NCBI RefSeq assembly: GCF_037198315.1
Contig: NZ_CP144913.1
Coordinates: 1,302,001-1,366,000 of the forward strand
Reading direction: 5' to 3'
Source: Janibacter sp. A1S7
GTDB taxonomy: Bacteria; Actinomycetota; Actinomycetes; Actinomycetales; Dermatophilaceae
Length of the DNA: 64,000 bases
Below are positions 48,890 through 64,000 of this stretch, one piece after another. A program made the position numbers and the translations under genes. How positions within the stretch are numbered: the stretch's first letter is position 1; each line of letters opens with the position of its first letter. The notes under the pieces were generated by a model, which ran no database searches, was not told the origin of the DNA, and saw only the letters and a list, made by a program, of their open reading frames with translations.

Positions 48890-48913
48890 GGCATGCCTGC
48901 TCCGTGTAAGTCA

Positions 48914-48953
48914 CGGGTGAGGCATGTCCTGCGATGGAAGCCTGTCGATCCGC
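48914..48953 (-). repeat. Repeated leader element, copy A (upstream of EVE/HNH gene)
   Basis: The core 48922-48947, GCATGTCC-T-GCGATGGAAGCC-T-GTCG on the + strand, is nearly identical to 50890-50914 (one mismatch, one extra T), with flanking CGGGTG and CCGC shared. On the gene strand it is followed by a CCGTG/CACGG hairpin (48902-48916) and the start codon at 48889. It is either a shared control element or a duplicated end of an inserted cassette. Confidence 0.65.
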
Positions 48954-48980
48954 CGGTGTTCGGTTGGTGTGCGTTCTCGC

Positions 48981-50849
48981 CTACGACCGCACGAGCGATC
49001 GCAGGAAGTCTCGGGTCTGGGGGTCGGTCGAGTAGATGTGCACGCTGCGCATTCCGCGGGTGAGCAGCACCTTGTAGACATTGCGCACGAGCCGGTCGAA
49101 GTCGGCGTCCGGGACCTTCTCGCGGTTCTTGAAGTCCGGGTCCCGGTTGGCCTCGCGCACCGAGACCCAGCGGTCGTCACGCCACACCAGATCGGGCCCG
49201 ATGATCACTCCGGCGTGGTCGTACTCGAATCCCTGAGCGGTATAGATGCAGCCCACCTGGCCGAAGCCGGCCGGGTCTGAGGCCCACAACGGCGAAGGGG
49301 GAGCCCCGCCCACTGCTCGGTCGCCACGCAGGTTCCACGGCCGGGACCAGTCGTCGATGTGAACGTCCGGCACGAGTGTCCCGTCGTTGCGTGGGTCGCT
49401 CCATGGCCAGCAGTAGCCAGCCGCCATGCGCGCGGTGTAACCCCCTTCGTGCTTCTGGGCGAGCACATGCTCAAGCTCGTGGGGCGAGTCCACGACCTCG
49501 ACGGTGAAGCCATCGTCCCCGCGCCACGGGAGGGGCCCACCCGGGGCCAGCCCGAGGAGGTGCAGCACCCAGTCGACGTACACCTGTGAACCGCCACACC
49601 GGAACTGGTCGTCGAGCCGGATCTCTTCCACCTCGATGCCTAGGACTGCGGCGTAGCGCTCGATGTCCTGCACGGTGCCCAGCTCACCCGGCCGCACGAC
49701 TTGGTGTTGATCGAGGAGGAAGACGGGCACCCGTGCGGCAGAGAGGAGCTCGTGGATCTGTGGTTGTGCGCGCTCCCGCTCGGCCTTACGGGTGTACCGG
49801 TTGACCGAGGTCTCCCGGATGCGGTGCGCCTCGTCGAGGATCAGGCAGTCCAAGTCGTTTGGCTCGGCCGTCATGAACGAGTTGAAGTACTTGAAGAGCT
49901 GCCGCACCCGTGGTGCTCGCGCGGCTGCGACCTTGCGCAGCGTCTGGGTGAACGACCGCGAGCCCGTGGCGTGCACGACGGTGCGACCCTGTCTCGACAG
50001 TTCGCCCATGAGGGAGAGGGCGATGACGGACTTGCCGCTGCCCGGGCCACCACTGACGACGATGGCTCGCTTGGTGTTCGCGCGCCGGGCCCGTTCGACG
50101 GCGTGCAGCACGTGCTCGTAGGCGTCTCGTTGCTCGTCGAGGAGGACGAACATCTCACGGCGCTGGACCTCGTCCGCGGCGACGGTCAGGAGCTGCTTGC
50201 TGGGGGCGATCCGCGACGCGAGCAGAGCATCGGCGGCATCGGCGCCCGGTTTGCCGGGAGCCAGGTGCTGGGCGAGGAAGTCACCGAAAGCCGCCCGCCG
50301 CTGTCCCGTGAACACGCGAGAACGCGCCGTGGCCGGACGGGCGAAGAGGTCCTCGACCCCACGGTCGGTCGCGTTGTGCAGGTAGGCGGCGCCCACCAAA
50401 CTGTGTTCGGTCTCCGCGAGGTGACTGGTGAAGTCGGCGATGTAGTCGACGTACCCCTCGACCTGCACGGCCGGGTGGGTGACGCCGCGCCCGCCGTACT
50501 GCTCAACGGCGACGAGGGTGTCGGAGTCCTCGAATGCTTCGGCGTGCGACCACTGCTTGAGCTCGACGACGACGTACGAAGGGAGCCCTGTGCGTGGGTG
50601 CACGCCAGCGAGGACCACGTCGGCTCGCTTGGACGTCAGCGGGAGCTGGTACTCCACCAGCATCTCCACCTCGTGCAGTCCCACGTCGATCAGGTCGGCA
50701 CGAAGGGCGGGCAGGCTCCGCTCCCACGCGCGGCGCTCACCGGGCGAAGGGGAATGGCCGGTCTGGATGGACATCTGTTCAGCAAGGCGCTCGGCCAAGT
50801 GGTGCTCGAGCGCCGAGAATCCTCGGACGGATGAGCGGAGCAGTGGCAC
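48981..50849 (-). CDS. Nuclease-helicase fusion protein (DUF2075)
   Basis: A 622-aa protein from the GTG at 50849, preferred because GGGGAT is 7 nt upstream; a GTG at 50870 would add 7 residues. The N-terminal region has a PD-(D/E)XK-like nuclease signature: RADVVL (D77), then VVVELKQW (E96, K98). A DUF2075 superfamily 1 helicase-like ATPase follows: Walker A SGGPGSGKS (about 266-274), Walker B LILDEAHR (about 337-344) and DDQFRCGG further on; YTAQGFEYDHAG is a late helicase motif. It heads the leftward unit with EVE/HNH and MazG-like genes. Domain limits are by eye. Confidence 0.85.
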   Translation of the reverse strand: MPLLRSSVRGFSALEHHLAERLAEQMSIQTGHSPSPGERRAWERSLPALRADLIDVGLHEVEMLVEYQLPLTSKRADVVLAGVHPRTGLPSYVVVELKQWSHAEAFEDSDTLVAVEQYGGRGVTHPAVQVEGYVDYIADFTSHLAETEHSLVGAAYLHNATDRGVEDLFARPATARSRVFTGQRRAAFGDFLAQHLAPGKPGADAADALLASRIAPSKQLLTVAADEVQRREMFVLLDEQRDAYEHVLHAVERARRANTKRAIVVSGGPGSGKSVIALSLMGELSRQGRTVVHATGSRSFTQTLRKVAAARAPRVRQLFKYFNSFMTAEPNDLDCLILDEAHRIRETSVNRYTRKAERERAQPQIHELLSAARVPVFLLDQHQVVRPGELGTVQDIERYAAVLGIEVEEIRLDDQFRCGGSQVYVDWVLHLLGLAPGGPLPWRGDDGFTVEVVDSPHELEHVLAQKHEGGYTARMAAGYCWPWSDPRNDGTLVPDVHIDDWSRPWNLRGDRAVGGAPPSPLWASDPAGFGQVGCIYTAQGFEYDHAGVIIGPDLVWRDDRWVSVREANRDPDFKNREKVPDADFDRLVRNVYKVLLTRGMRSVHIYSTDPQTRDFLRSLVRS

Positions 50850-50880
50850 GGACAGATCCCCAGACAGCACGAAACTCGTG

Positions 50881-51376: not shown

Positions 51377-52642
51377 CTACCGCGGTCTCGACGCGGTCGA
51401 CCGGGACCCCGGGTGGGTGTCCTGGCGGTGGTCGCCCTGCCGCACCTGTACCAGTCGGGTGAGTGCGGAGGCCGCGGCGAGGGCGGCGAGCACGAGCATC
51501 GGTGCCGCCGCGCCGATGCTGTCCTGGTACGTGTTGAGGACGAAGGGCAGGGCGAAGCCCGTGTACGTGACGACGTAGAAGATGCCGATGACCAGCCCCC
51601 GGGTGGAGCGCGGTGCGAGCCGGTCGACGTCGCGCAGGCCCTGCCCGAGGCACAGGCCGTACGCGGCCCCGAAGACGATCGAGCACAGCACGAAGGTCGC
51701 AATGCTCATCCGGCTGCCCGCCACGCCGGAGATGAGGAAGGCGGTGGCCGCCAGCCCCGCTCCGACGACCCCGAGCGGTCGCCATCCGGCGATCCGGCGC
51801 GTGCCGAGCTGGACGACGATGCCGGTGCCCAGAGCCAGCACGGCCGCCACCGCCGGCAGCATCGGCCCCCCGTACTGGCCACCGATCCGCTCGGTCAGCA
51901 CGATCATGGCGACGGTGACGCAGGAGAAGACCCACAGCGTCATCGGCAGTGCGGCCGCAAGGGCAGGACCCAGGCGCCGGTCCTCGACGAAGGGGGCGGA
52001 GCTGCCGTCGCGAGGCGGGCGAGGCGTCCTGTGGGGCGCCACGACACTGGCGTAGTCCGGGCGCAGGCAGAGCAGCGCCGAGACTCCGGTCAGGAGCACC
52101 GGGACGGCGAAAGCCACGACCAGTCCGGTCTCCCCGGGGGTGAACTGCGCGATCAGGCCGGAGGCCAGCGGGCCGGCCGCGAACCCGGTGGTGAGCACGA
52201 CCCCTGCGCGTGCGGCCCCCTTCGCCGCGTCGTGGTCGCCCGCCCACGCGGTCCCCGCACTCGCCACCAGGCCGACACCCACGCCGACGACGAGCCTGCC
52301 GAGCATCACCCCGGCCAACGTCGGCCAGATCAGCATCACCAGGTTGCCGCCGCCGCACAGGACCAGCCCGGTCAGCACGACCGGCCGTCGCCCCCGGCGG
52401 TCCGACAGGCCGCCGCCGAGCAGCAGACCCGGCAGCAGACCGAGGGCGTAGAGGCCGAATGCGGCATCCAGACCCGGCTTGGCGATGTGCTCGACCTCCG
52501 CGAGCACGGGCAGGAGGGCGGCGAAGTGGTTCGTCGACCATCCCGCGGCCAGCAGGGCCGCGAGCGTGACCCAGATCGCGCGACGGCGACCGGATGACGG
52601 CATGGCGACAGGGCGCGTCGGCGCGAAGGTGCGCTGACCCAT
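51377..52642 (-). CDS. MFS transporter
   Basis: A 421-aa major facilitator with twelve predicted helices. The loop between helices 2 and 3 carries the MFS signature GGGLSDRRGRRPVVL, and a second RRIAGWRPLG-type loop marks the half repeat. GGAGG lies 5 nt before the ATG at 52642. Its start overlaps the stop of the upstream methyltransferase gene (TGATG), so the two form an operon. It may export a small molecule modified by that enzyme. Substrate unknown. Confidence 0.85.
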   Translation of the reverse strand: MGQRTFAPTRPVAMPSSGRRRAIWVTLAALLAAGWSTNHFAALLPVLAEVEHIAKPGLDAAFGLYALGLLPGLLLGGGLSDRRGRRPVVLTGLVLCGGGNLVMLIWPTLAGVMLGRLVVGVGVGLVASAGTAWAGDHDAAKGAARAGVVLTTGFAAGPLASGLIAQFTPGETGLVVAFAVPVLLTGVSALLCLRPDYASVVAPHRTPRPPRDGSSAPFVEDRRLGPALAAALPMTLWVFSCVTVAMIVLTERIGGQYGGPMLPAVAAVLALGTGIVVQLGTRRIAGWRPLGVVGAGLAATAFLISGVAGSRMSIATFVLCSIVFGAAYGLCLGQGLRDVDRLAPRSTRGLVIGIFYVVTYTGFALPFVLNTYQDSIGAAAPMLVLAALAAASALTRLVQVRQGDHRQDTHPGSRSTASRPR

Positions 52643-53541
52643 CAACCCTCCCGGACGGGTGCGATCGCCCGTGGACTGACGAGCCACGGCACGGTACCTG
52701 AAATGTATATCTCCGAGGCTCGGCGCGGCAGGAAGAACAGGTCACGGTGGTGGACTGTGGCCGCGAGTTGACCTCCCTCGACCTGTTCCTTGCGCAAACC
52801 GAGATAGTCGCTGCCCTCGGACTGGAGAGTCGAATCCTGCTCACAGGCAGCACCGACCCACCCGGTAAGCCACGACTCGAGTAGGACGGTGTCTCTCGAG
52901 TCCACCTGCCACGGGCTCGGCGCGAGCTGGACGGTGTACCCCGCGTGCAGGAACTCCGCTGCGGCCACGTCCACGGCACCGGGCCCGAGGAGTTGGCCGT
53001 GGCCGGTCTCGCGCATCTGGTGGTCGTTGAACGCCGCGGTGATCCGGCCGTCGAGAGGGTGCGCGGGCGCCAGCTTCACCTGACCGACGACACTGAGGGT
53101 GATCAACGCCGGACAACCGGCCCCAGCGATGCTCGCCACCATCCGTTCGATCTCCTCGCGCGTCATCATGTCGAGGAGCGCTGACGCCGTGACGAGTGAG
53201 GCGCCCGTGAGGTCGCTCGGTGGCAACCGGGTGATCTCGCGTAGGCGCCATTCGGTGGTGATCGCCTGGCCGTCACGCGACAGCGGTGGGGGAGCAGCGG
53301 TGGCGCGGGTGAGGAGGTCCTCGTCCCGTTCATAGCCCACCCAGTGCTGCGGGCCGGATAGTTGCGGGGCGAGCCAGCGGGACATCGAGCCCGTGCCGCA
53401 ACCGAAGTCATGGATGACCAGGCCATCCGTCGGCAGGTGCGGACGAAGGGCGTTGACCAGCTGGACGGATCGGGCCGCTGCATCCGCCGGCTCGCGCAGG
53501 GCGAGCCAGTCGGCGTCGGCGCGGGCCACCTCCTCGGTCAT
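52642..53541 (-). CDS. Class I SAM-dependent methyltransferase
   Basis: A 299-aa protein. The SAM motif HDFGCGTGSMSRWLA is at about residues 45-59, with YERDEDLL as the acidic post-II segment and LVTASALLDMMTREE as post-motif. The C-terminal half (about 180-299) is specific to this protein. CAGGA 7 nt upstream supports the ATG at 53541. It is coupled to the MFS gene by TGATG and divergent from the CDP-alcohol phosphotransferase-methyltransferase gene. The substrate is unknown; a pathway role with the pterin/lipid cluster is possible. Confidence 0.8.
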   Translation of the reverse strand: MTEEVARADADWLALREPADAAARSVQLVNALRPHLPTDGLVIHDFGCGTGSMSRWLAPQLSGPQHWVGYERDEDLLTRATAAPPPLSRDGQAITTEWRLREITRLPPSDLTGASLVTASALLDMMTREEIERMVASIAGAGCPALITLSVVGQVKLAPAHPLDGRITAAFNDHQMRETGHGQLLGPGAVDVAAAEFLHAGYTVQLAPSPWQVDSRDTVLLESWLTGWVGAACEQDSTLQSEGSDYLGLRKEQVEGGQLAATVHHRDLFFLPRRASEIYISGTVPWLVSPRAIAPVREG

Positions 53542-53623
53542 GGGGACATCCTGACGCTTCCTAGCGGTGGTATCGAGGGCGGACCACGGGCGGCCGTGCG
53601 CCCCAGGCACCGAGGCTCATCTC

Positions 53624-53636: not shown

Positions 53637-55097
53637 ATGACACTGCGGGCAGCTTCGGCACTGCTGCTCCCGCAGATCGTGCTGCTGGGCGGGATCGGGC
53701 TCGCCACCGGGTGGGGCGTCGTCGGATGGGTCGTGGCCATCGCCGCCACCGCCATCCTGGACACATTCGTCGCCCGCGGGCTGCGCCACCACCACGATGT
53801 CCTCGGACCGGCCGACCTCGTGACGATCACCCGGGCCACGCTCACCTGCGCCGTCACCGCGCTCGTCGCCGCATCGCTACTCGCCGGGGACCTCCTCGAC
53901 ACCTCGCCGTGGACGACCACCATCACCGTCCTCGCCGTCCTCTCGCTGACCCTCGACCTCGTCGACGGGTGGGTGGCGCGATGGACCGCGACCGCGTCCC
54001 CCTTCGGTGCCCGTGCCGACGGTGAGGCCGACGCCGCCCTCATGCTCGCCCTGAGCATCTGGATTACCCCCAGCCACGGCTGGTGGGTGCTGCTGATCGG
54101 ACTGGCCCGCTACGCCTTCGCTGCCGCCGGGTGGGTGCTGCCGTGGCTGAGGGCGCAGCTGCCACCGCGCTACTGGCGCAAGGTCGTCACGGCCGTCACC
54201 AGCACGATCCTTGTCGTCGCCACGGCGGGAATCGCGCCCCGACCGGTCGTCATCACCGCGCTCCTGGTCGGTCTGGCCCTGATCACCGAGTCCTTCGGCC
54301 GCGACATCTGGTGGCTGTGGCACCACCGCCACGCCACAGAAGACCCACTCCGGAGCGCGCGGCGCGACGCCTACGGGCAGCACGATTTCGTCGACCAGCA
54401 GGGATTCATGACCGCCGACGAGATCCGGCGGCTCGCCGCCGCAGCCGGCATCGGGCCGGACACGCGGGTGCTCGACCTGTGCTGCGGGCACGGTGGACCC
54501 GGCCGCCTCATCACCCGCGAGCTCGGCGGCACCCTGCTCGGCGTGGACGCCGACGCCTCGGCCATCGCGGCCGCCCGCTCCCGGACCGGCCACCTGCCCT
54601 GCAGCTACGAGACGGGACGCATCCCACCCGTCCCGGACGGCCCCTTCGAGGTGGTCCTCCTGCTGGAGACGATGCTCGCCTTCCGCGACAAGGAAACCCT
54701 GCTGGCCGGGATCCACGCGGCGCTCGCACCCGGCGGTCGCCTGGCCTGCACCGTCGAGGTGGGCGCGCCCCTGACCGAGGCCGAGCGCGCCGCCATGCCC
54801 GCCGCCGATACCGTCTGGCCGATCCCGTTGTCCCGGCTGCACGAGGTGCTCGAGCAGGCCGGGTTCGAGGTCACCTGGCAGCAGGACCGCACCGCCGCCC
54901 ACCGCGGGGTCGTCGACTCGCTGCTGACCGAGTTCACCCGGCACGAGGGCGCGATCGCCGGACAGATCGGGCGCGGCCAGGTGGACGACCTGCTGACCTC
55001 GCACCGCCTGTGGAGCGACTGGCTGGGCACGGGGCGCATCCGCAAGGTCGCGCTCGTCGCAATCGCTCAGCCGGTGCAGCGCTCGGACAGGGCGTAG
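53637..55097 (+). CDS. CDP-alcohol phosphatidyltransferase fused to a SAM methyltransferase
   Basis: A 486-aa two-domain protein. Residues 1 to about 225 form a membrane domain with the complete CDP-alcohol phosphotransferase motif DGx2ARx8Gx3Dx3D (DGWVARWTATASPFGARADG, then EAD, near 110-132). Residues about 240-486 are a class I methyltransferase (VLDLCCGHGGPGRLI near 277; LLGVDADASAIAAA). The fusion suggests transfer of a CDP-activated lipid to an alcohol head group and methylation of the product. It is convergent with, and overlaps by 31 nt, the RibD-like gene that ends the opposite operon, which it probably serves. Confidence 0.87.
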   Translation: MTLRAASALLLPQIVLLGGIGLATGWGVVGWVVAIAATAILDTFVARGLRHHHDVLGPADLVTITRATLTCAVTALVAASLLAGDLLDTSPWTTTITVLAVLSLTLDLVDGWVARWTATASPFGARADGEADAALMLALSIWITPSHGWWVLLIGLARYAFAAAGWVLPWLRAQLPPRYWRKVVTAVTSTILVVATAGIAPRPVVITALLVGLALITESFGRDIWWLWHHRHATEDPLRSARRDAYGQHDFVDQQGFMTADEIRRLAAAAGIGPDTRVLDLCCGHGGPGRLITRELGGTLLGVDADASAIAAARSRTGHLPCSYETGRIPPVPDGPFEVVLLLETMLAFRDKETLLAGIHAALAPGGRLACTVEVGAPLTEAERAAMPAADTVWPIPLSRLHEVLEQAGFEVTWQQDRTAAHRGVVDSLLTEFTRHEGAIAGQIGRGQVDDLLTSHRLWSDWLGTGRIRKVALVAIAQPVQRSDRA

Positions 55098-55753
55098 CGC
55101 AGCAGCACCACGTCGCCGATGGCGCGCGTCTCGACCAGACGCGCGGGGGAGTCGGCCCGCCACGGGAAGGCCCCGTCGTCGACGAACCGCCGCGCCCGAG
55201 AGTCACCGATGAGGAAGGGCGCGAGCACCAGGTGCATCTCGTCGGCCAACCCCTCGGCCAGGAACTGCGTCAGCACCGTGCCGCCGCCCTCGACGAGCAG
55301 GCGCTGGACACCCCGCTCGGCCAGGTCGGCGCACACCCGCGCCATGCGCACCGGCCGACCGCCGTCGACGATCGTGGCCACCGCCCCGATCCGCTCGCGG
55401 GCGTGCTCGACCCCGTCCCGTGCGCAGTAGACGAGCTTGTCGACCTCCCCGAGGGTGAAGAAGTTCGCGTCCGGGTCGAGGTCGGCCCGCTCGCTGACGG
55501 TCACCTTCACCGGGGAGGCGCTCCGCCCGGCGGCGAGCCGCTCCTGCACCCGCTGCTCGCTGCGCACGAGCAGCCGCGGGTCGTCCAGACGCAGCGTGCA
55601 GGCACCGACGAGGATCGCGTCGCTGTCCGCGCGCACCTGGTCGACCCGGTCCAGATCGGCCGCGTTGGACAGGATCAACCGCCGCGTCGACGCGTCGTCG
55701 AGGTACCCGTCGAGGGAGATCGCGCAGCTGAGGGTCGTGTACGGCCGCGTCAC
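55067..55753 (-). CDS. RibD C-terminal (dihydrofolate reductase-fold) family protein
   Basis: A 228-aa reductase of the RibD_C/DHFR-like fold: LSCAISLDGYLDDAS at the start, SDAILVGACTLRLDDP as NADPH-binding part and RLLVEGGGTVLTQFLAEG near the middle. In riboflavin synthesis this fold reduces a pyrimidine; stand-alone versions act on pterins and related heterocycles. The GTG at 55753 overlaps the flippase-like gene by GTGA. As the last gene of the pterin operon it probably reduces the heterocycle. A role in riboflavin synthesis is unlikely because no rib gene is near. Confidence 0.82.
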   Translation of the reverse strand: MTRPYTTLSCAISLDGYLDDASTRRLILSNAADLDRVDQVRADSDAILVGACTLRLDDPRLLVRSEQRVQERLAAGRSASPVKVTVSERADLDPDANFFTLGEVDKLVYCARDGVEHARERIGAVATIVDGGRPVRMARVCADLAERGVQRLLVEGGGTVLTQFLAEGLADEMHLVLAPFLIGDSRARRFVDDGAFPWRADSPARLVETRAIGDVVLLRYALSERCTG

Positions 55754-56739
55754 GGAACCACCCGGGCCTCGGGCCGAGCAGCGCGCCGCGACCCGGGCCG
55801 AGAGGAACGCGTGCCGGCCACCAGCAGCACGGCGCCGGGCAGCGTCGCCACGAGCGCCAGCACCCCGTAGAGCACCGCCACGCTCACCCCGGTCGCCGCG
55901 CCCAGACCGGCCACCTCGAAGGCCCACGCGGCCACCCCTTCGCGCGGGCCCCACCCGGCGACGCTCGCCGGGATCGCGGCACCGAGCAGCACGATCAGCG
56001 CCAGGGCCACCTGCCGCCCCACCGAGACCTCGACGCCGGCCGCGGCCATCGCCACGAGCAGGACCGTGACGTGACCCAGCACGGCCACGACCGAGGTGAC
56101 CACGATGCCCACCGGCGCCCCGCGTACGCGCAGGATCCGGCGCAGGTCCGCCACGAGCACCCCGACCACCCGCACGAGCGTCACCCCCAGCACCAGGGCG
56201 ACCAGGGCGGCGGCGCCGATCACCACCAGCGCCCGTACCGGGCCGGGCAGCACCACCAGCAGCGCCGCGGTCAGCACGACCTGCACGACCTGCGCGAGGC
56301 TGCGTTCCCAGACCACGGAGCGCACCCCGCGCCCCATCCGGTCCACGTCGTAGCCGTGCCGCACCGCGCGGTGGACATCACCGAGGACCCCGCCGGGCAG
56401 CACCGAGTTGAGGAACTGCGAGCGGTAGTACGCAGCGACCGCCGCCGGCAGCGCGATGCGCGCGCCCAGACCGGTCGCGACCACGCTCCAGCGCCACGCG
56501 GCACAGATCGTCGTCACCACGGTCAGTGCGAGCGCGGCCAGCAGCGCCGGCCAGGTGACCTCGGTGACGGCCAGGACGACGGGCTCGATACCCACCACCG
56601 CCAGCAACACCGCGAGGATCACCACGCCGACGGCGGGGCGCCATCCTCTCCCGAGGCGCCCACGCAGAGCGCGGGACCCGGCGCCCGGGAGGCGCTCGCG
56701 GATCGGGGCGCGGGTGGGGTCAGGGGCCGCGCGGACCAT
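55750..56739 (-). CDS. Lysylphosphatidylglycerol synthase-type (UPF0104) membrane protein
   Basis: A 329-aa integral membrane protein with about eight helices, of the flippase-like UPF0104/MprF N-terminal type: AYYRSQFLNSVLPGGVLGDV is its signature. It has no soluble synthase domain, so a lipid-flipping or transport role is more likely than lysyl transfer. It overlaps the glycosyltransferase gene by 20 nt upstream and the RibD-like gene by 4 nt downstream. In this operon it would flip the glycolipid product. Confidence 0.82.
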   Translation of the reverse strand: MVRAAPDPTRAPIRERLPGAGSRALRGRLGRGWRPAVGVVILAVLLAVVGIEPVVLAVTEVTWPALLAALALTVVTTICAAWRWSVVATGLGARIALPAAVAAYYRSQFLNSVLPGGVLGDVHRAVRHGYDVDRMGRGVRSVVWERSLAQVVQVVLTAALLVVLPGPVRALVVIGAAALVALVLGVTLVRVVGVLVADLRRILRVRGAPVGIVVTSVVAVLGHVTVLLVAMAAAGVEVSVGRQVALALIVLLGAAIPASVAGWGPREGVAAWAFEVAGLGAATGVSVAVLYGVLALVATLPGAVLLVAGTRSSRPGSRRAARPEARVVP

Positions 56740-57769
56740 CCGCCACCTCGTCCAGGACCTGCGCGACGCGGGTGACCGTCTCCCGCCAGGGCGTGAGCGT
56801 CAGGCGCCGCCCCCGGGCGGCACCCCGCACCCCTTCGCGGTGGTCGGCGTCGGTGAGCCAGGCACGCAGACCGGCGGCGAGGGCGTCGGCGTCCCCCGGA
56901 GGGACGAGCGCGCCGGGCAGCCCACCTCCCACCTGCCCGAGCGTGGCCGGCACCCCACCGACGCGCGCGGCGATGACCGGGATCCCACGCACCAGCGCCT
57001 CGGTCACGACCATCGCGTAGGTGTCGGCGCGGGTGGGGTGGACGAGCAGGTCGGCCCGCACGTAGGCCGTGTCGAGGTCGTCGCCCACGCGTGGCCCGAC
57101 GAAACCCACCCGGTCCGCGAGGCCGAGCTCGGCCACCCGCTCCTGAAGATCCCGGACGAAGACCGGTTCCACATCGAGGGGCCCCACGCAGGTGCACTGC
57201 CAGTCCAGGTCCCGGATCGACGCGAGGGCCTCGACCAGCACGTCGTGCCCCTTGGCCCGGGTCACCGGGGCGACACACAGTAGGTGTCCACCCCCGCCGC
57301 TGCCGTCGGTGACCTCGGCCGGGCGCACGCCCGGCTCGGCGACGTGCACGCGCGCGTCCGGCAAACCGTGCCGGTCGAGCATCCGGTCGCGGGTCCAGTT
57401 GCTCGTGGTGATCACCGCGGTCGCCGCACTGAGCGCGGTCCGCTCCGCGGCCTCGTCCGCGGCCACCATGTGCGCCAGCACGACCAGGCGCAGCCGGTCA
57501 CCCGCCGCGGCCGTCTCCTCCGGCGCCGCGAGCGCGACCAGCCCGTCGAGCAGGACCACCGAGTCGTCGGGGACGTCGGCGAGCGTCGCCGCCAATGCCG
57601 CCGGCGTCTCCGGCTGCGGGTGCGGCCACGACCCGGGCACGGGGTGCTCGCGCACGCTCCACCCGAGCCCGGCCAGCCCGGTGCACACCTCGCGGTCGTA
57701 GGTGTTGCCGCCGCTGGGATGGAGCGGGTCGTCGATGTCGCCCGGCAGGACGACGTGCACGGTCCTCAC
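56720..57769 (-). CDS. GT4 family glycosyltransferase
   Basis: A 349-aa glycosyltransferase of the GT-B fold, family 4-like. The donor-binding segment is [19 protein letters not shown] (about residues 245-263) with [11 protein letters not shown] after it; [19 protein letters not shown] starts the second Rossmann domain. It should move an activated sugar to a small molecule or lipid. It overlaps the flippase-like gene and the PTPS-like gene at either end, so it is part of the same translationally linked operon. Confidence 0.87.
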
Positions 57770-58173
57770 AGCACCACCTCGCAGCTCGCGGAGGCGATGT
57801 GCGACTCGTGCAGGGTGACCGTGATCCTGCTCAGGTGCTCACCCGGCCCCAGATCGCCGTCGGCCACCCGCCGGGCGAGCTGCTCGGCGACGGCGAAGGC
57901 CAGCGCCTCGGTGGTCGTGTTGCGCCCGGCGAAGTCCGGCTCCTCGTCGAGGTTGCGGTAGGTCAACCCTGCAAGCGCATCCTTCAGCTCCTGCGCCGCC
58001 CGGCCGAGGTCGACGACGATCCCGTCACTCGTCAGCCTCGCGCTGTGGAAGGTCGCGTCGACCACGTACGTCGCGCCGTGCAACCGCTGCGCCGGGCCGA
58101 AGACCTCACCGCCCAGACTGTGCGCGATCATCATGTGGTCGCGCACGGTCGCGGAGAACTTTGCGTGTTTCAT
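57766..58173 (-). CDS. Degenerate 6-pyruvoyl-tetrahydropterin synthase/QueD homologue
   Basis: A 135-aa PTPS-fold protein. [25 protein letters not shown] and LHESHIAS (glutamate E123, which binds the pterin ring) are clear family segments. Key residues differ: the zinc site HGH is HGA (H18 and H32 kept, third position A34), no catalytic cysteine precedes it, and the D76 partner histidine is E77. It may bind or transform a pterin by another route. It overlaps the glycosyltransferase and the dehydrogenase by 4 nt each. Confidence 0.83.
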
Positions 58174-59192
58174 CCGGACTCCTCACCGCCCTCGTCCTCG
58201 TCGTGCTCATCGGTGTAGGTGACGACATGGCAGATGGCCGGGATCCGCCCTTCGCTGATCCCGGCCATCACCTGCGGCAGGTCGTCGAAGGGGGAGTCCC
58301 CGGTCAGCAGGGCGTCGAACCTCGGATCCCGCAACAGCTGCAGGGACAACGCCTTCCGCTCGGCCGGCGAGCGCACCCCGCGCCGGGCGTCGGCGACGGC
58401 GGCGACCTGGCTGGAGCGGATCCGCAGCCGCCCCGAGTGGTAGGCGCCGCCCAGGGCGAGCTCGACGCCGCGGGTGCCGTACCAGCTGAGGTCGAGCACG
58501 GTGCCCTCCGAGCGCAGCAGGTCCAGCGCGGTCTGCAGGCCGGCCGAGGTCGCGCTGGTGTGCACGACGAGGTCCTGGCCCCCCTTCGCCTCGTGGGGGA
58601 GCGCGAAGTCGACCCCCAGGTCCGCGGCCACCGCCGCCCGGGTCCCGTCCACGTCGACGAGGGTGACCTCGACGCCCGGGTATCGCGCGAGCAGCCGTGC
58701 GGCACAACAGCCGACCATCCCGGCGCCGACGACGCCGACCCGGTCACCGAGCAGCGGCGGGACGTCCCACAGGCCGTTGACCGCGGTCTCGACCGCGCCG
58801 GTCAGGACCGCCCGCCGCGCCGGCACGTCGTCGGGGACGGGCACGACCGCATCGGCCGGGACGACGTAGCGGGTCTGGTGCGGGTGCAGGCAGAAGACGG
58901 TCCGGCCGAGCAGGTGCGCCGGCCCGTCCTCGACGACCCCGACGCTGAGGTAGCCGTAGGCGAGCGGGCCGGGGAAGTCACCCTGCTGCATGGGTGCGCG
59001 CATCGCCTCGTACTGGCTCGGCGGGACCTCCCCGCGGAAGACGAGCGCCTCGGTGCCCCGGCTGATCCCCGAGAAGAGCGCACGGACGAGGACCTCGTCG
59101 GGGCCGGGTGCGGGCAGTGACGCGGAGCGGACCTCGCCACGACCGGGCTCGACCACCCAGAAGGCGCGTGCGTCCGGGGCCGGGGCACTCAC
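58170..59192 (-). CDS. Medium-chain (zinc-binding type) dehydrogenase
   Basis: A 340-aa MDR-superfamily dehydrogenase. The coenzyme motif [14 protein letters not shown] lies near 170-183 and LVDVD follows. The catalytic zinc cysteine of true alcohol dehydrogenases is replaced by [11 protein letters not shown], as in the BchC/YhdH-like branch. AGGAGG stands 8 nt before the GTG at 59192. It is the first gene of the five-gene operon (dehydrogenase, PTPS-like, GT4, flippase-like, RibD-like), all joined by short overlaps, and is divergent from the sulfatase-like gene 65 bp away. Confidence 0.85.
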
Positions 59193-59231
59193 GGTCGACA
59201 CCTCCTGACGCGACGGCGCTGCCGCTGTGGT

Positions 59232-59244
59232 CCCTATCGTAGGG
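59232..59244. promoter_or_regulatory. Symmetric bidirectional promoter core
   Basis: The palindrome CCCTATCGTAGGG contains TATCGT on the + strand and TACGAT on the - strand, both of TAnnnT -10 type and overlapping by five bases. It serves the divergent sulfatase-like gene (ATG 59258) and the pterin operon (GTG 59192), so one core could start both transcripts. It could also be an operator half-site pair. Confidence 0.5.
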
Positions 59245-59257
59245 CCCGGGAGGCGCC

Positions 59258-59560
59258 ATGATTCGACGGACAGCGGGCCGGGCCTCGGCCACGGTCGCGA
59301 GCGCGCTGGCGCTGGTCCTCGTCTGGGGTGCACTGGTGCTGCCGTCAGCTCCGGCGGCGCCGGTTTGGGGGTCACTGCTGCGCTTCCCGCTCGGGGCGCT
59401 GATCGTGCTGGCCGTGCTCCTCGTGGTACCGGTCGCGGCGCGTCGGGCGGTGACTCTGGCCCTGGGGGCACTGCTCACGCTGGTGGTGGGCGTCACCGCC
59501 CTGGACATCGGCTTCTCCGTGGTGATGGATCGCCGATTCCACGCGCTGTACGACGTGGCG
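59258..59560 (+). CDS. Sulfatase/LtaS-like membrane protein, first exon (N-terminal membrane part)
   Basis: First 101 codons of a protein interrupted by a group II intron. It has three hydrophobic helices (for example SATVASALALVLVWGALVLP) and ends ..FHALYDVA at 59560, exactly on a codon boundary. GGAGG lies 4 nt before the ATG. Read onward without splicing, the frame enters intron RNA and stops at about 59785. Joined to 61735-63036 it gives a 534-aa protein of the five-helix plus extracellular-domain type found in alkaline-phosphatase-like lipid-head-group transferases. Confidence 0.75.
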
Positions 59561-60159
59561 GTGCGCCGTGAGGCGCTTGTTGTTCGAGTGGAGGTGAGAG
59601 ACCTTTGCCTGATTCCCTGCCGTAGCAGGGAGTCCGTAGCTGGGGGCAGCCTGATCGCAGGGACGTGCGGGAGGGCGGGAGCAGCCCCGACAAAGCCGTG
59701 TCGCGTCAGCACCGTTGGATGGCGTGGGCGCGGCGAGCAAGCCGAAGAGGTATACGCGAGGAACCGGTGTCATCACCTGTCTTGACGTACTACCGCCTCA
59801 AACCCAGTGGATATGGGGCGGGCGCGGCCAGCCACCTGCCGGAGTGATGGGCGGTGGACCGCCCGGGGCACGAGTTACATGTCCCGGGTCGGGTCGGCGG
59901 TGAAGGACTACGGAGTAGTCGCCGACGAGTGCCGCAGGCAGATAGCCGGGTGCCTCCTTCGGTCAGCGGACAGCAAGTGAACACGGGAAGGTCCCCGGGG
60001 CCTGCCCGCCGAGCCTGTACAGCCAGCGCGGGTCGGTGTGGCTGGGTGCGTCGCCTGCCGATCGGCCCGGGGGCTGGCGGAGCCGCCGTAGTACTGCGAG
60101 TCCGGGAAAGCCGGACACATCGGGAAGGGCGGCAGCGAGGATGGATAGGAGGTACTGCG

Positions 60160-61620
60160 ATGGCGCAAGAGGCGTTGGTGAACTCCGACGCTCGAGCCTT
60201 GATGGAGCAAGTCAGGGAGCGGGTAGCGCGGACGCAGATCAAGTATCACCGGTGGGCCAAGACCGACCGCGATCAGCGGTTCGGGGACTTGTTCAACCTC
60301 GTGTCACACCCGGACTACCTGCGGGTGGCCTGGCAGCACGTGGCACGAAACAAGGGGGCTCGCACCGCGGGGGTCGACGGCGTGACCGTGCGTCAGATCG
60401 CCCAGCGGGGTGAGATCGGGGATTTCCTGAATGGGATCGCCGCGAGCCTGAAGGACGGCACGTATCGGCCCTCGCCGGTGCGGCGGGTGCTCCTTCCCAA
60501 GCCGGGCGGCAAGTCGCGCCCGTTGGGGATCCCGACCGTGACCGACCGGGTCGTGCAGCAGTCGTTGAGGATGGTGCTGGAACCGATCTTCGAGGCCGAC
60601 TTCCAGCCGGTCTCCTACGGGTTCCGGCCCAAGCGGCGCGCCCATGACGCGGTCGCCGAGATCCACCACTACGCCACCAGCGGGTACCGGTGGGTGCTGG
60701 ACGCAGACATCGAAGGATGTTTCGACCACATCGACCACACTGCCCTGCTGGGTTTGGTGCGGGAACGGATCAAGGACAAGAAGACCGTGGCACTGGTCCG
60801 CGCGTTCCTCAAGGCCGGAGTTCTTGATGAGCTCGGTCTGCAGGCCGCGACCAGTGAGGGAACCCCACAAGGCGGGATCATCTCGCCGCTGTTGGCCAAC
60901 ATCGCCTTGTCCGTGCTGGACGAGGCGATCATGGCCCCGTGGAAGCCAGGTGGTGACCAGTCAAGCCAGGCTGAACGCGCCAAACGTCGTTACCACGGGT
61001 TGGGCAACTGGCGGATCGTGCGCTACGCGGACGACTTCGTCATCATGACCAACGGCAGCAAGGATGACGCGCTGGCCCTGAAAGAACAGGCCGCCGAGGT
61101 GCTGGCCGGGATCGGGCTGCGGCTTTCCGAGGCCAAGACCCGCGTCACGCACCTACGCGAAGGGATCGACTTCCTCGGCTTCCACATCCAGTGGAGGAAA
61201 CGCAGAGGAGGCGGCAAGTGGTGCTGCATGGTCTTCATCAGCAACAAAGCGTTCGCGAGGATCAAACAGACCATCCGCGCTCTGACCCCTCGCCGGTCAC
61301 CACGGCCCATGATGGACGTGATCATTGAGGTCAACGCGGCGCTGCGCGGGTGGACGTCCTACTTCCGCCACGCCATCGCCGGGCGACGATTCAGTTTCCT
61401 TCGGTACTTCACCTGGAGACGCTTTGTCGCGTGGCAGCGCGAGCAGCGCCGCTGGAACTGGTCCAAGGTCAAACGATGGCTCCGCCGCCCAGACGGCAGT
61501 TGGAAACCCATCGCGACTACGGACGTGGCCGTCTTCGACCCCACGAAAGTGCGGGTTCGACGCTATCGGTACCGCGGGAATCGGATCCCCAGTCCCTACG
61601 ACCCGGCCACGGCCGCCTGA
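60160..61620 (+). CDS. ltrA: Group II intron reverse transcriptase/maturase
   Basis: A 486-aa intron-encoded protein for splicing and retrohoming. The reverse-transcriptase blocks are in order: RPLGIPTVTDRVVQQ, FQPVSYGFRPKRRAHDAV, VLDADIEGCFDHIDH, EGTPQGGIISPLLANI and the catalytic RYADDFVIM, followed by the thumb/domain X region and the conserved ALRGWTSYFRHA. AGGAGG lies 7 nt upstream of the ATG. No clear HNH endonuclease domain is visible after domain X, so target cleavage may use replication forks. It appears intact. Confidence 0.95.
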   Translation: MAQEALVNSDARALMEQVRERVARTQIKYHRWAKTDRDQRFGDLFNLVSHPDYLRVAWQHVARNKGARTAGVDGVTVRQIAQRGEIGDFLNGIAASLKDGTYRPSPVRRVLLPKPGGKSRPLGIPTVTDRVVQQSLRMVLEPIFEADFQPVSYGFRPKRRAHDAVAEIHHYATSGYRWVLDADIEGCFDHIDHTALLGLVRERIKDKKTVALVRAFLKAGVLDELGLQAATSEGTPQGGIISPLLANIALSVLDEAIMAPWKPGGDQSSQAERAKRRYHGLGNWRIVRYADDFVIMTNGSKDDALALKEQAAEVLAGIGLRLSEAKTRVTHLREGIDFLGFHIQWRKRRGGGKWCCMVFISNKAFARIKQTIRALTPRRSPRPMMDVIIEVNAALRGWTSYFRHAIAGRRFSFLRYFTWRRFVAWQREQRRWNWSKVKRWLRRPDGSWKPIATTDVAVFDPTKVRVRRYRYRGNRIPSPYDPATAA

Positions 61621-61637
61621 CGGCATCACCTCGTGGA

Positions 61638-61731
61638 GAGCCCGTTGCGTTGAAAGGCGCACGGCGGGTTCGGCGGGCGGTCCGGGGAAACGGGGCAGCA
61701 GCAATGCCGCCACCGCGCCCCGGACCGACCC
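61638..61731 (+). ncRNA. Group II intron domains V and VI
   Basis: Domain V is the 34-nt hairpin at 61638-61671 (GAGCCCGTTGCGTTGAAAGG in its first 20 nt, closing ..GGCGGGTTC) with the catalytic AGC near its 5-prime end and a GAAA tetraloop-like apex. Domain VI pairs GGGCGGTCCGGGG (61675-61687) with CCCCGGACC (61718-61726) and CCC (61729-61731), leaving A61728 bulged as branch point. Confidence 0.85.
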
Positions 61732-61734
61732 AAC

Positions 61735-63036
61735 AACCTCGGGCGCGGGTACGTGGTGCTCGCCGACTGGGCGGGCCGGGGGTGGGCGGTCGCGGTCGTG
61801 CTGGGGAGCGTCCTGGTGACCGTGCTCGTGGGCGTGCTGCTCGTCCGGTCCGTGGCGCGACTGTCCCGGGTGGTCGTCGCCCACCGGCGCGGAGCGCTGG
61901 CCGCGCTGCTCGTGGGCGCCCTCGCGTGGGGCGCCCTGGCGGTCTCGGGCGTGCAGGTGGCCGGCCAGGCGGTCGCGTCCACGCCCACCGCGGGGCTGGC
62001 CCGCGAGCACGTCGCCGGCGGCTGGGCCGACTACCGGGACGAGTCGGCCTTCGGCACGGCGATCGCCGACGACGAGCTGGCCGGACAGCCGGACCTGCTC
62101 GGCGGGCTGGCGGGCAAGGACGTGCTGGTGGTCTTCGTCGAGAGCTACGGCGCAGCAGCGCTGACCGACCCCGACATCGCGAAGGGGGTCACCCCCGTCC
62201 TCGACGCGGGCGAGGAGTCGTTGGGTCAGGTGGGCGTCGAGGCACGCAGCGGGTGGCTGACCTCGCCGACCGTCGGCGCCGGCTCGTGGCTGGCGCACGC
62301 CACCCTGCAGTCCGGGCTGTGGGTCGACGACGACCGGCGGTACGAGCAGCTGCTGGCGGCGGACCGGCTGACGCTGACCCGGGCCTTCTCCGACGCGGGG
62401 TGGCGCACGAGCTTCGTGCTGCCGGCGGTGGCGGAGCCCTGGCCGCAGGGGACGGAGTTCTACGGCTTCGACCGGTTGCACGCCGGCGACGACCTGGGCT
62501 ACCGGGGACCCGAGCTCGGGTGGGGCGGCATCCCCGACCAGTACACGCTTGCGTGGGTGTGGCGCTCGCTGCTCGCCGGCACGGACGGCCCCGTCATGGC
62601 CGAGATCGACCTCGTCTCCAGCCACAACCCGTGGCCGCAGCCGCCGCCCCTGCTGCCGTGGGGCGACGTCGGTGACGGGTCGACGTACACGTGCATGCCG
62701 GGGTGCGCCGCGCAGGGGCCGCAGGACGTGCGCTCGCGGTACGCCGCGTCGGTCGGGTACTCGCTGGAGTCGGTGGTCTCCCTCGTCGAGGAGCACCCCG
62801 ACCTCGTCGTGCTCGTCCTGGGAGACCACCAACCATGGGGGCAGGTCACCGGCGACGACCCCAGACACGACGTGCCGGTGACCCTCCTCGCCGGTGACGC
62901 CGAGGTGATCGAGCGTGTCGACGGGTGGGGCTGGACCCCCGGTATGCAGCCCGCACCGGACTCGCCGGTGTGGCGGATGGACGCCTTCCGCGACCGATTC
63001 CTCGGGGCCTTCTCCCGGGGAGTGCACGAGCGATAG
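61735..63036 (+). CDS. Sulfatase/LtaS-like membrane protein, second exon
   Basis: Second part (433 codons) of the intron-split gene, beginning NLGRGYVVLADWAG in frame with the first exon. Two more helices precede an extracellular domain of the sulfatase/alkaline-phosphatase-like type: VLVVFVESYGAAAL holds the metal and nucleophile region, EIDLVSSHNPW and VLVLGDHQPWGQ the later metal ligands. Such proteins transfer or hydrolyse phospho- or sulfo-head groups at the membrane surface. Its position opposite the pterin/glycolipid operon suggests it modifies that product. Automatic annotation would probably call it a stand-alone gene from the GTG at 61753. Confidence 0.78.
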   Translation, partial: NLGRGYVVLADWAGRGWAVAVVLGSVLVTVLVGVLLVRSVARLSRVVVAHRRGALAALLVGALAWGALAVSGVQVAGQAVASTPTAGLAREHVAGGWADYRDESAFGTAIADDELAGQPDLLGGLAGKDVLVVFVESYGAAALTDPDIAKGVTPVLDAGEESLGQVGVEARSGWLTSPTVGAGSWLAHATLQSGLWVDDDRRYEQLLAADRLTLTRAFSDAGWRTSFVLPAVAEPWPQGTEFYGFDRLHAGDDLGYRGPELGWGGIPDQYTLAWVWRSLLAGTDGPVMAEIDLVSSHNPWPQPPPLLPWGDVGDGSTYTCMPGCAAQGPQDVRSRYAASVGYSLESVVSLVEEHPDLVVLVLGDHQPWGQVTGDDPRHDVPVTLLAGDAEVIERVDGWGWTPGMQPAPDSPVWRMDAFRDRFLGAFSRGVHER

Positions 63037-63054: not shown

Positions 63055-63091
63055 CGTCATGAACGACGCCATGACGAGTTCAACTCATGGC
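63055..63091. terminator. Overlapping hairpins between convergent genes
   Basis: CGTCATG/CATGACG (63055-63061 with 63070-63076) and GCCATGA/TCATGGC (63068-63074 with 63085-63091) are two mutually exclusive 7-bp hairpins between the sulfatase-like gene and the convergent acyl-CoA ligase. They may stop both transcripts. Confidence 0.45.
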
Positions 63092-64000
63092 TGTTTCAGG
63101 GCCACCTTGCGGATCTTCCCCGCAGGGGTCATCGGCAGCGACTCGACTACTTCGATCCGGCTCGGGACCTTGTATGCCGCGAGAGTGCGCCGGCACAACT
63201 CAATCAACTCGGACGCATCCACGGTCTGGTCGGCGGCGGGCACGACGAATGCGAGGCCCGTCTCACCGAAGGTGTCATCCGGTGTGCCGATGACGGCGGA
63301 CATGGCGACCGAGGGGTGCGTGGCCAGGACGTTCTCGACTTCAGCGGGATAGACGTTGTAGCCACCGCGCACGTACATCTCCTTCTTTCGCGCGACGAGC
63401 ATGACGTGGCCGTCCTCGGTCATCGAGCCGACATCACCGGTACTCAGCCAGCCGTCCTCACCGAACGCGGACGCCGTTTCATCGGGCATCTCCCAGTAGC
63501 CAGCGGCGACGCAGCCGCCGCGAACCTGCAGCTCGCCGACCTCGCCCGGGGGGAGCGGCTCGTGCTCGTCATCGACGATACGGCCCTCGAAGTCCCCGAG
63601 CATCGTCCCGATCGAACGGCCGACCATCTCCACCGAATCCCCCGGGGGAGAGATCGCGCACGCGCCCGATGTCTCTGACAGTCCATAGAGGTTCGCCATG
63701 CGCGCGTTGTCGAACGTTGACGTCACCTGCTCGGCCAGCGCGGGCTCAAGATTGGAGCCTCCCACCACACAGAGACGGATGCCGTCGGCCCCCTCGGGAG
63801 CTCCCGAGGCGAGGACCATCCTGAACATCGTCGGGACGCCGACGAACATCGAAATCGGCGTCTCCTGCATGGCACGCCGGACCAGGTCGGGGTGGAACCG
63901 AGGCAGGAGGGAGAAACCTCCGCCGGCGACCAACGACGAGGTGAGGGTGCAGGTGAGTCCGCCCACGTGGTTGAAGGGAAGCACCCCGAGGATCACATCC
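63085..64000 (-). CDS. Acyl-CoA ligase (AMP-binding), N-terminus outside window
   Basis: The C-terminal ~305 residues of an ANL ligase, open to the window edge. The A5 motif is LYGLSETSGAC, the A7/A8 region is DGWLSTGDVG with ARKKEMYVRGGYNVYPAEVE and the catalytic lysine is in LPMTPAGKIRKVAL. LGVLPFNHVGGL is the A4 region. The ATP-binding P-loop must lie beyond 64000. It should activate a fatty or aromatic acid, like the three other ligases in the window, but no partner gene is seen. Confidence 0.87.
   Translation of the reverse strand, partial: DVILGVLPFNHVGGLTCTLTSSLVAGGGFSLLPRFHPDLVRRAMQETPISMFVGVPTMFRMVLASGAPEGADGIRLCVVGGSNLEPALAEQVTSTFDNARMANLYGLSETSGACAISPPGDSVEMVGRSIGTMLGDFEGRIVDDEHEPLPPGEVGELQVRGGCVAAGYWEMPDETASAFGEDGWLSTGDVGSMTEDGHVMLVARKKEMYVRGGYNVYPAEVENVLATHPSVAMSAVIGTPDDTFGETGLAFVVPAADQTVDASELIELCRRTLAAYKVPSRIEVVESLPMTPAGKIRKVALKQP

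Follow-up and report, generated by a model that had tools for sequence, protein, structure and literature searches.

A conserved actinobacterial gene cluster around an SCO6650-family protein in Janibacter sp. A1S7 and its putative GTP-derived product

For Streptomyces coelicolor, the structure of SCO6650 was reportedly described in a 2008 paper, and a 2006 study in Biochemistry on the GTP cyclohydrolases II (GCHIIs) of this organism is said to have found that SCO6655 yields a formyl intermediate via a Tyr-to-Met change. Apart from these known pieces, our literature search, which covered open-licence papers, returned neither a product of the cluster analysed here nor a pathway with its gene set, in line with a sequence-only reading of the locus that knew of no such pathway. 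Related chemistry opens archaeal riboflavin biosynthesis, which starts with the GCHIII ArfA, the formamidase ArfB and the reductase ArfC/Rib7. Furthermore, the creatininase-family protein BrbF of S. meliloti (SMc02977) was shown to deformylate the formylaminopyrimidine (FAPy), and the same paper names the bacterial source of this compound as a gap (PMC9478397).

The Janibacter locus and its closest relatives

The window, i.e. the whole stretch of 64,000 nucleotides of Janibacter sp. A1S7 that was analysed (contig NZ_CP144913.1, positions 1,302,001 to 1,366,000), encodes a PTPS-like protein that, judged by sequence comparison, belongs to the SCO6650 family, with PDB entry 3D7J (SCO6650) as its sole match at E ≤ 0.001 (E 1.1e-45, residues 5-133). 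In four Streptomyces loci (L054, L057, L076 and L079) the genes follow the order PTPS, GT4, methyltransferase, UPF0104, creatininase and GCHII, which, going by the numbering, would fit the S. coelicolor genes SCO6650 to SCO6655. The Janibacter locus shares the SCO6650-family member with this region, but differs from it in carrying neither a cluster GCHII nor a creatininase, and in the presence of a Rib7-like reductase, a fused CDP-alcohol/methyltransferase gene and an LtaS-like gene. Domain calls with Pfam and NCBIfam profiles gave the following features:

52642-53610, minus strand: class I SAM methyltransferase (Methyltransf_25, E 2e-6)
53637-55097, plus strand: fusion of CDP-alcohol phosphotransferase (PF01066, E 3.1e-12) and SAM methyltransferase (Methyltransf_23, E 1.4e-11)
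55067-55753, minus strand: Rib7/ArfC/RibD_C-like pyrimidine reductase (PF01872, E 1.5e-37; ORF 55067-55954, probable GTG start at 55753)
55750-56739, minus strand: UPF0104/LPG_synthase_TM, flippase-like membrane protein (PF03706, E 3.8e-24)
56720-57769, minus strand: GT4 glycosyltransferase (PF00534, E 1.6e-24)
57766-58173, minus strand: PTPS-fold protein, SCO6650 family (PF01242, E 4.3e-20)
58170-59201, minus strand: MDR-superfamily dehydrogenase, BchC-like (GTG start at 59201 or 59192)
59258-59560, plus strand: LtaS/sulfatase-like membrane enzyme, 5' exon (ATG at 59258; boundary by blastn)
59561-61734, plus strand: group II intron of 2,174 bp inside the LtaS-like gene
61735-63036, plus strand: LtaS/sulfatase-like enzyme, 3' exon, alkaline-phosphatase-superfamily core

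Neighbouring genes overlap by 20 nt (UPF0104/GT4), 4 nt (GT4/PTPS and PTPS/MDR each) and, with the GTG at 55753 taken as start codon, another 4 nt (RibD_C/UPF0104). Profiles and coordinates thus bear out the sequence-only reading, which had described MDR, PTPS-like, GT4, UPF0104 and RibD-type genes joined by overlaps of 4-20 nt; the MDR-type protein matched TIGR01202 (BchC, E 4.8e-10) and PF00107 (ADH_zinc_N, 22 bits), both below cut-off. The convergent CDP-alcohol phosphotransferase-methyltransferase of that reading was likewise recovered as one ORF of 486 aa, with the phosphotransferase at approximately aa 1-235 and the methyltransferase at approximately aa 238-486, the 3' end of which overlaps that of the RibD_C gene by 31 nt.

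The divergent LtaS/sulfatase-like gene was also present; rather than forming a single ORF, it is split by a group II intron. It breaks off after 59560 and resumes at 61735, and these two bases align to neighbouring bases in the uninterrupted loci L100 and L101 of the same genus (blastn); in a third same-genus locus (L099), about 17 bases remained unaligned at the intron site. The intron comprises an RT/maturase ORF (59854-61620; TIGR04416, E 5.3e-115) and a 3' ribozyme part (61636-61734; Rfam RF00029, 43.1 bits), and its RT is encoded at four places of the genome with 100% protein identity. The ORF 61753-63036 alone gave no Pfam match, and an intact relative (L015) matched PF00884 (E 2.6e-6). 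Residues E227, T277, H383, D459 and H460 were invariant among 12 aligned LtaS-like sequences, presumably matching the metal and nucleophile pattern of LtaS. A helical N-terminus, predicted in a structure model of low confidence in the N-terminal part, may be common to this protein and LtaS/LtaP, as may a domain in which acidic, Thr, His and Asp-His positions are conserved; the sequence relation is very weak (E 0.032 for the lipoteichoic acid primase 4UOP).

The likeness of the PTPS-fold protein to PTPS/QueD enzymes of the T-fold consists of a shared Pfam family and distant similarity to two solved PTPS chains. Compared with these two chains, the HGH zinc motif is changed to HGA, with loss of the third zinc histidine, and the DH pair to xY in all ten aligned members of the SCO6650 family, so that neither the three-histidine zinc site nor the catalytic residues of PTPS/6-carboxytetrahydropterin synthase are complete. 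With part of the zinc site and catalytic residues replaced, PTPS chemistry should not be read from the name, and a classical PTPS/QueD role was rejected on these residues.

Conservation of the gene set in actinobacteria

To describe the neighbourhood, 132 non-redundant loci centred on the PTPS-like gene, the window included, were analysed with HMM profiles. For the first set of relatives, 565 stretches were confirmed and the best 80 of them kept; 15 loci were added from relative genomes (16 of 58 matched, one being that of the window) and 39 from a survey of the class, in which 45 of 296 genomes matched at 46 places, with G039, G040 and G041 already in the set and G000 being the window. Three weak or cut matches of this survey (G129, G106, G324) were left out, and three duplicate loci (L122, L126, L138) were removed before counting.

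The PTPS-like gene shared its locus with GT4 in 131 of the 132 cases, MDR in 130, UPF0104 in 119, the CDP-alcohol enzyme in 114, a methyltransferase in 111, GCHII in 97, RibD_C in 83 and creatininase in 48, while the LtaS-like gene (56/132) and the fused-type methyltransferase (18/132) were too infrequent to count as core. All six of PTPS, MDR, GT4, UPF0104, CDP-alcohol enzyme and methyltransferase were found in 96/132 loci, the window among them, and in 85 of the 103 loci in which PTPS is flanked by 5.5 kb or more in both directions. On the same strand and within 500 bp of PTPS lay MDR in 120/132 and GT4 in 128/132 loci; MDR stood apart from PTPS in 10/132, namely in Lentzea loci and some others. 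Gene order differs between lineages and some genes are optional. A Thermoleophilia MAG locus (L026) carries all six core genes, and a Streptomyces locus (L045) only MDR, PTPS and RibD_C. A control set of stretches, each roughly 20 kb long (20 from cluster-carrying genomes and two from the window), analysed with the same profiles and score, returned one match in total, to RibD_C, and conservation in 132 loci versus these 22 controls rules out a chance neighbourhood. These genes form one conserved actinobacterial unit, as proposed for the single locus, and stay linked across many soil bacteria; they were not found scattered in relatives. Its distribution is patchy, with the cluster in 5/16 genomes of the genus, 16/58 relatives and 45/296 sampled genomes of the class, and in Thermoleophilia MAGs as well.

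The methyltransferase at 52642-53610, which lies outside the region originally delimited, belongs to the conserved cluster, and a homologue was found in 69 of the 80 related loci (tblastn; best 80 of 565) and by HMM in 111/132. When its AlphaFold model (mean pLDDT 86.9) was compared by Foldseek, the top 50 matches listed were all class I methyltransferases or related SAM enzymes, whose query TM-scores spanned 0.36-0.53; as these enzymes are varied, an assignment of the substrate from the fold was set aside. The C-terminal part of the fusion was matched in only 4 of the 69 loci with a match (best 80 of 565), and both fusion domains occurred in 23 of the 120 protein matches listed (of 412), the window's own included, the named two-domain proteins among them being two from Janibacter and one from a Promicromonosporaceae MAG. 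Two flanking genes were rejected as cluster members: an MFS transporter (51377-52687), regarded as flank because it occurs in three same-genus loci only, and an acyl-CoA ligase (63085-63996), matched in two of the loci examined.

GCHII type, creatininase and the start of the pathway

Analysis of the GCHII sequences at the position of E. coli Tyr105 revealed Tyr in 49 sequences, with creatininase in none of their loci, and another residue in 47 (Met 30, His 13, Leu 3, Gln 1), with creatininase in 47/47; one Ser sequence (L072) and one gapped sequence (L066, first copy; set apart in the residue table) had no creatininase. Of 36 loci added after this pattern was first noticed, 29 contain GCHII, comprising 8 with Tyr and no creatininase and 21 without Tyr, all 21 with creatininase. 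On the MDR tree, which took in 94 of the 97 GCHII loci, residue and creatininase each need four changes. Three independent pairs lie on well-supported branches, two of which agree and one of which shows no difference in creatininase (sign test, median p 0.5, with too few pairs to reach significance), and the coupling rests on few independent events.

All 20 well-flanked loci without GCHII, the window included, also lack creatininase, as expected if housekeeping RibA can replace only the Tyr type. Within the genus, GCHII is absent from L099-L101 and present in L105. Since the Janibacter cluster contains neither GCHII nor creatininase, which also kept both from the view of the first reading, the start of the pathway was deduced from relatives; the single GCHII of the genome sits elsewhere, and the Janibacter RibBA has Tyr at the position in question. 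As a Tyr-type enzyme would give the diaminopyrimidine directly, a dedicated copy would be dispensable and Janibacter could use its housekeeping RibBA.

The pairing of a non-Tyr residue with creatininase fits a route from GTP via formylaminopyrimidine and a formamidase to the diaminopyrimidine, as in the logic of archaeal riboflavin biosynthesis. The proposed FAPy formation, deformylation and reduction are common to both, and the cluster reductase has among its relatives an enzyme of the reduction step with a solved structure; the cluster differs in using a tyrosine-substituted GCHII-family enzyme instead of GCHIII, and in its conserved downstream genes for tailoring and membrane enzymes. The cluster protein of L055 falls into the creatininase superfamily (PF02633, E 4.2e-65), with MftE as the best model, followed by creatininase, IolN and ArfB, all below cut-off. 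Its likeness to BrbF consists of the superfamily match and the same proposed reaction (PMC9478397). Expression of SCO6655 was considered as support for the cluster and dropped: it correlates with predicted riboflavin flux at r -0.61, but SCO2687, the other listed S. coelicolor GCHII, behaves likewise at -0.52, so that opposition to this flux fails to single out the cluster gene (PMC2853524).

What is new here is that the residue at the Tyr position of GCHII and creatininase vary together, which suggests how the pathway starts. The precursor is probably GTP-derived and of pyrimidine or pterin type; for the pterin-type compound proposed from the single locus, this support comes from the GCHII and creatininase genes of relatives.

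The reductase of the window scored 124 bits against TIGR01508 (cut-off 186) and is hence related, but not assignable as equivalog; its PDB relatives are the 5XV5 group ('Conserved protein') and 6P8C, a 2,5-diamino-6-ribosylamino-4(3H)-pyrimidinone 5'-phosphate reductase. RibD_C was matched in 48/49 loci with a Tyr-type GCHII, five of these weakly. In loci with the creatininase-linked type it went undetected in 31/47 and was weak in nine more, and the ribityl step may therefore not be general.

Proposed pathway and alternative explanations

Taken together, we consider it likely that the conserved unit, here termed the SCO6650 cluster, makes, via a GCHII start, a dedicated GTP-derived small molecule distinct from riboflavin. 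GTP would be opened by GCHII, as comparison with relatives supports, either by a Tyr-type enzyme that gives the diaminopyrimidine directly (type A) or, in Streptomyces, Actinomadura, Lentzea and others (type B), by a modified GCHII that would halt at FAPy, to be deformylated by the creatininase-family formamidase. By homology, the Rib7-like reductase would then turn the ribosyl side chain into ribityl. The later steps are drawn from protein family and are tentative as written: the MDR enzyme and the zinc-less PTPS-fold protein, usually adjoining, may modify the pyrimidine or close a ring on it, probably giving a pteridine-like base, GT4 may add a sugar and the methyltransferase a methyl group, the CDP-alcohol phosphotransferase may join the product to a lipid by a phosphodiester, and at the membrane it may be acted on by UPF0104 and, in loci that have one, by the LtaS-like enzyme. 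Glycosylation, methylation, lipid anchoring, export and surface exposure of a pterin-type product, as first read from the single locus, are inferred from the predicted enzymes.

The same genes could also yield a soluble glycosylated ribityl-pyrimidine or pterin, as cofactor or secondary metabolite, with the CDP-alcohol and UPF0104 proteins serving transport or another step. Pterin glycosides are known from cyanobacteria, the solved structures closest to GT4 belong to ordinary glycosyltransferases of the GT4 family (3C4Q/3C48, 'Predicted glycosyltransferases', which we take to be MshA, a small-molecule GT4 enzyme), and the LtaS-like gene is optional (56/132). However, CDP-alcohol enzymes and UPF0104 proteins are known to act at the membrane on lipid-linked substrates, and both genes (114/132 and 119/132) are retained almost as consistently as those of the pterin side; we regard a soluble product as conceivable at low probability.

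Two independent pathways sharing one locus, a pterin side (MDR, PTPS, RibD_C, GCHII) and a lipid side (GT4, UPF0104, CDP-alcohol, LtaS-like), appear improbable. The optional genes, the varying order and the reduced locus L045 would agree with such a division, but the joint presence of both modules' core genes in 85/103 well-flanked loci and in L026, together with the proximity of PTPS and GT4 (≤500 bp in 128/132), argues against it. Still less credible, and in our view very improbable, is that the cluster provides an auxiliary route to riboflavin or F420/deazaflavin. Riboflavin-type steps are represented by GCHII, the formamidase and the Rib7-like reductase, but the ten families present in at least 22 of 80 loci (best 80 of 565) include no lumazine or riboflavin synthase, and the cluster is patchy (16/58 relatives, 45/296 in the class). 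We also know of no role for glycosyltransferase, CDP-alcohol or UPF0104 genes in these pathways.

The molecule made by the SCO6650 cluster probably matters to the cell. We tentatively propose, at low confidence, a new class of membrane lipid in many actinobacteria with a head group made from GTP, namely a ribityl-pyrimidine or pteridine bearing sugar and methyl groups. Its synthesis would begin as in the riboflavin pathway and involve a zinc-less PTPS-fold enzyme as well as a CDP-alcohol phosphotransferase; once flipped outward, the lipid would possibly be a membrane-bound redox or signalling pterin. With the coupling of GCHII and creatininase, assays have a concrete starting substrate and a pair of enzymes to work with, and a function can be suggested for an S. 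coelicolor GCHII paralogue as well as for one group of proteins annotated as 'creatininase'. Moreover, an enzyme of this kind could close the gap in the bacterial source of formylaminopyrimidine that is named in the BrbF paper (PMC9478397).

Gene layout and conservation of the cluster

The host genome consists of a single 3.36 Mb contig, of which the window covers bases 1302001-1366000. Pfam and NCBIfam searches identified the following genes, five of which are read successively on the minus strand (window coordinates):

58170 to about 59201, minus strand, MDR-superfamily dehydrogenase, first in reading order
57766-58173, minus strand, PTPS-like protein, second
56720-57769, minus strand, GT4 glycosyltransferase, third
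55750-56739, minus strand, UPF0104 protein, fourth
55067-55753, minus strand, RibD_C/Rib7-like reductase, fifth
53637-55097, plus strand, CDP-alcohol phosphotransferase-methyltransferase fusion, convergent with the minus-strand genes
52642-53610, minus strand, further methyltransferase beyond the fusion gene

The MDR protein scored below the cut-off for zinc dehydrogenases, as did its best NCBIfam match, BchC, and inspection of its sequence by eye did not reveal the zinc-ligand motifs which we take to be usual for these enzymes. Protein matches of the fusion include Janibacter cremeus and Janibacter sp. DB-40. Fold comparison of the methyltransferase (Foldseek) was uninformative. Elsewhere in the window, positions 46666-47658 encode a staphylococcal-nuclease domain protein (PF00565, E = 1.1e-18) with a proline-rich tail, and at 48053-50870 an HNH endonuclease gene (PF13391) adjoins one whose product contains a Schlafen group 3 helicase domain (PF09848, E = 9.8e-86); both gave PADLOC matches of modest score and possibly form a defence pair.

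Ten aligned PTPS-like proteins served as the query for a scan of genome contigs, in which the best 80 of 565 confirmed stretches belonged to Actinomycetes (76) and Thermoleophilia (3), with one unplaced. Tblastn of the window proteins against these best 80 of 565 loci detected GT4 in 79, MDR in 78, UPF0104 in 73, the methyltransferase and the CDP-alcohol/fusion protein in 69 each, RibD_C in 56 and the 3' part of the LtaS-like gene in 36. Addition of 15 loci from relatives, 39 from sampled genomes of the class and the window itself gave 135 loci, or 132 without duplicates. The sequence-only reading had taken the genes as linked, and a conserved neighbourhood was indeed found around the PTPS-like gene: profile searches detected GT4 in 131 and MDR in 130 of the 132 loci, followed by UPF0104 (119), CDP-alcohol enzyme (114), methyltransferase (111), GTP cyclohydrolase II (GCHII, 97), RibD_C (83), LtaS-like protein (56), creatininase (48) and a fused-type methyltransferase (18), while 22 control stretches yielded one RibD_C match at the same threshold. 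In both loci in which MDR is missing, the PTPS gene lies at a contig edge. MDR and GT4 were located on the same strand and within 500 bp of PTPS in 120 and 128 of the 132 loci, respectively, with MDR lying farther away in ten loci, including the five of Lentzea. Occurrence is patchy, as the cluster was found in 16 of 58 relatives, in 5 of 16 genomes within the genus (own genome counted in both) and, across the class, in 45 of 296 genomes. At one Streptomyces locus (L045, 10001-10400), MDR, PTPS-like and RibD_C genes were found and GT4, UPF0104 and CDP-alcohol genes were not detected; such a reduced cluster might reveal steps able to stand alone.

The LtaS-like gene and its group II intron

The divergent LtaS/sulfatase-like gene described in the sequence-only reading is present, but is split by an intron which that reading had missed:

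start at 59258, plus strand, LtaS/sulfatase-like gene, split by an insert at 59561-61734
59561-61734, plus strand, group II intron with GTGCG at its start, AC at its end, a reverse transcriptase/maturase ORF and, at the 3' end, a match to the group II model of Rfam

Bases 59560 and 61735 adjoin in the nucleotide alignment with two loci of the same genus (L100 and L101), which identifies the 2,174 bp in between as an insert; a third locus of the genus (L099) is consistent with this junction, but about 17 bases are unaligned there. As the exons comprise 303 and 1302 bases, the reading frame would be kept upon splicing. Four genomic sites code for the intron reverse transcriptase with 100% protein identity, which points to recent retromobility. 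Residues E227, T277, H383, D459 and H460 (numbering of the alignment) are invariant in 12 intact LtaS-like relatives, a set presumably as expected of the alkaline-phosphatase superfamily. The intact relative in locus L015 matches PF00884, and the predicted structure of the LtaS-like protein has a mean pLDDT of 73. The function of the host gene would depend on splicing of the insert at 59561-61734.

Coupling of the GCHII key residue to creatininase

Clusters of relatives include a GCHII (L021: PF00925, E = 4.9e-54), which some lineages supplement with a creatininase-family protein (L055: PF02633, E = 4.2e-65). The Janibacter genome encodes a single GCHII, within a 537-aa RibBA-like frame, and one creatininase-family gene, both outside the cluster.

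The GCHII residue corresponding to E. coli Tyr105 in an alignment with 2BZ0 was taken as the key residue. The first pass gave 33 sequences with Tyr, none accompanied by creatininase, 26 with Met or His, all accompanied by it, and one each with Ser or a gap, both without it. With further loci added and a looser profile search, Tyr was present in 49 of 98 GCHII sequences (97 loci), with creatininase in none, and Met (30), His (13), Leu (3) or Gln (1) in 47, with creatininase in all; the remaining two, again with Ser and a gap, lacked it. Among the 36 new loci alone, 29 contain GCHII, comprising 8 with Tyr and no creatininase and 21 non-Tyr with creatininase. As four different replacements occur, the sequences suggest that creatininase goes with the loss of Tyr rather than with any single substitute. 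The statistics are limited by shared ancestry of the loci: in a 94-row MDR tree each trait changes four times, and two of three independent pairs agree while the third shows no difference, the sign test being uninformative (median p 0.5).

The single exception, a Pseudonocardia GCHII (L072, 14145) with Ser at the Tyr105 position, other changed motif residues and no creatininase, is perhaps a decaying copy. A Mycobacterium MAG (L066) has two GCHII matches around the cluster (2988 and 9802), one of them gapped at the key residue. Creatininase occurs without GCHII at L064 alone, where the contig ends at the CDP-alcohol gene; in other Actinomadura loci, GCHII is the next gene outwards from there.

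Proposed pathway and its placement

The Met-bearing GCHII SCO6655 of S. coelicolor reportedly yields a formyl compound. BrbF, a creatininase-family enzyme of S. meliloti, was shown to form the diaminopyrimidine by deformylating a formylaminopyrimidine nucleotide; according to the authors of that study, the producer of this substrate in BrbF bacteria still awaits discovery (PMC9478397). Based on these two activities, we propose that clusters with non-Tyr GCHII and creatininase (type B) would convert GTP via the formylaminopyrimidine to the diaminopyrimidine, and those with Tyr-type GCHII and no creatininase (type A) would reach it in a single step. RibD_C was matched in 48 of 49 type A loci (5 weak) and in 16 of 47 type B loci (9 weak), so that most type B genomes would encode the reductase, if needed, at another place. 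The Janibacter cluster resembles a type A cluster having lost its GCHII; the housekeeping RibBA carries Tyr at the key position, consistent with its replacing the lost enzyme, and would supply the same product. Expression of SCO6655 was set aside as support for the cluster, as SCO2687 behaves alike.

Proteins of the SCO6650 family, to which the PTPS-like protein belongs, differ from standard PTPS in having other residues in place of the third zinc histidine and of the DH pair. The ligand of the PTPS-like protein probably resembles a pterin or pyrimidine, but standard PTPS chemistry is unlikely. That the MDR and PTPS-like genes are usually neighbours suggests consecutive steps, and the nearly equal constancy of GT4, methyltransferase, CDP-alcohol enzyme and UPF0104 suggests a glycosylated, methylated and lipid-linked putative product.

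We conclude that the cluster is a real, conserved, orphan biosynthetic unit. That it acts as one gene unit forming a GTP-derived product begun by GCHII appears reasonably probable, our confidence being slightly reduced by unspecific expression evidence and by MDR lying away from PTPS in some loci. The initial proposal of a glycosylated, methylated, membrane-anchored pterin-type compound is partly supported, in that the unit is conserved (132 loci) and a pyrimidine start is now specific and testable. As homologues of two of its parts have already been studied in S. coelicolor, the cluster is best regarded as a variant within an orphan family already known, not as an entirely new one.
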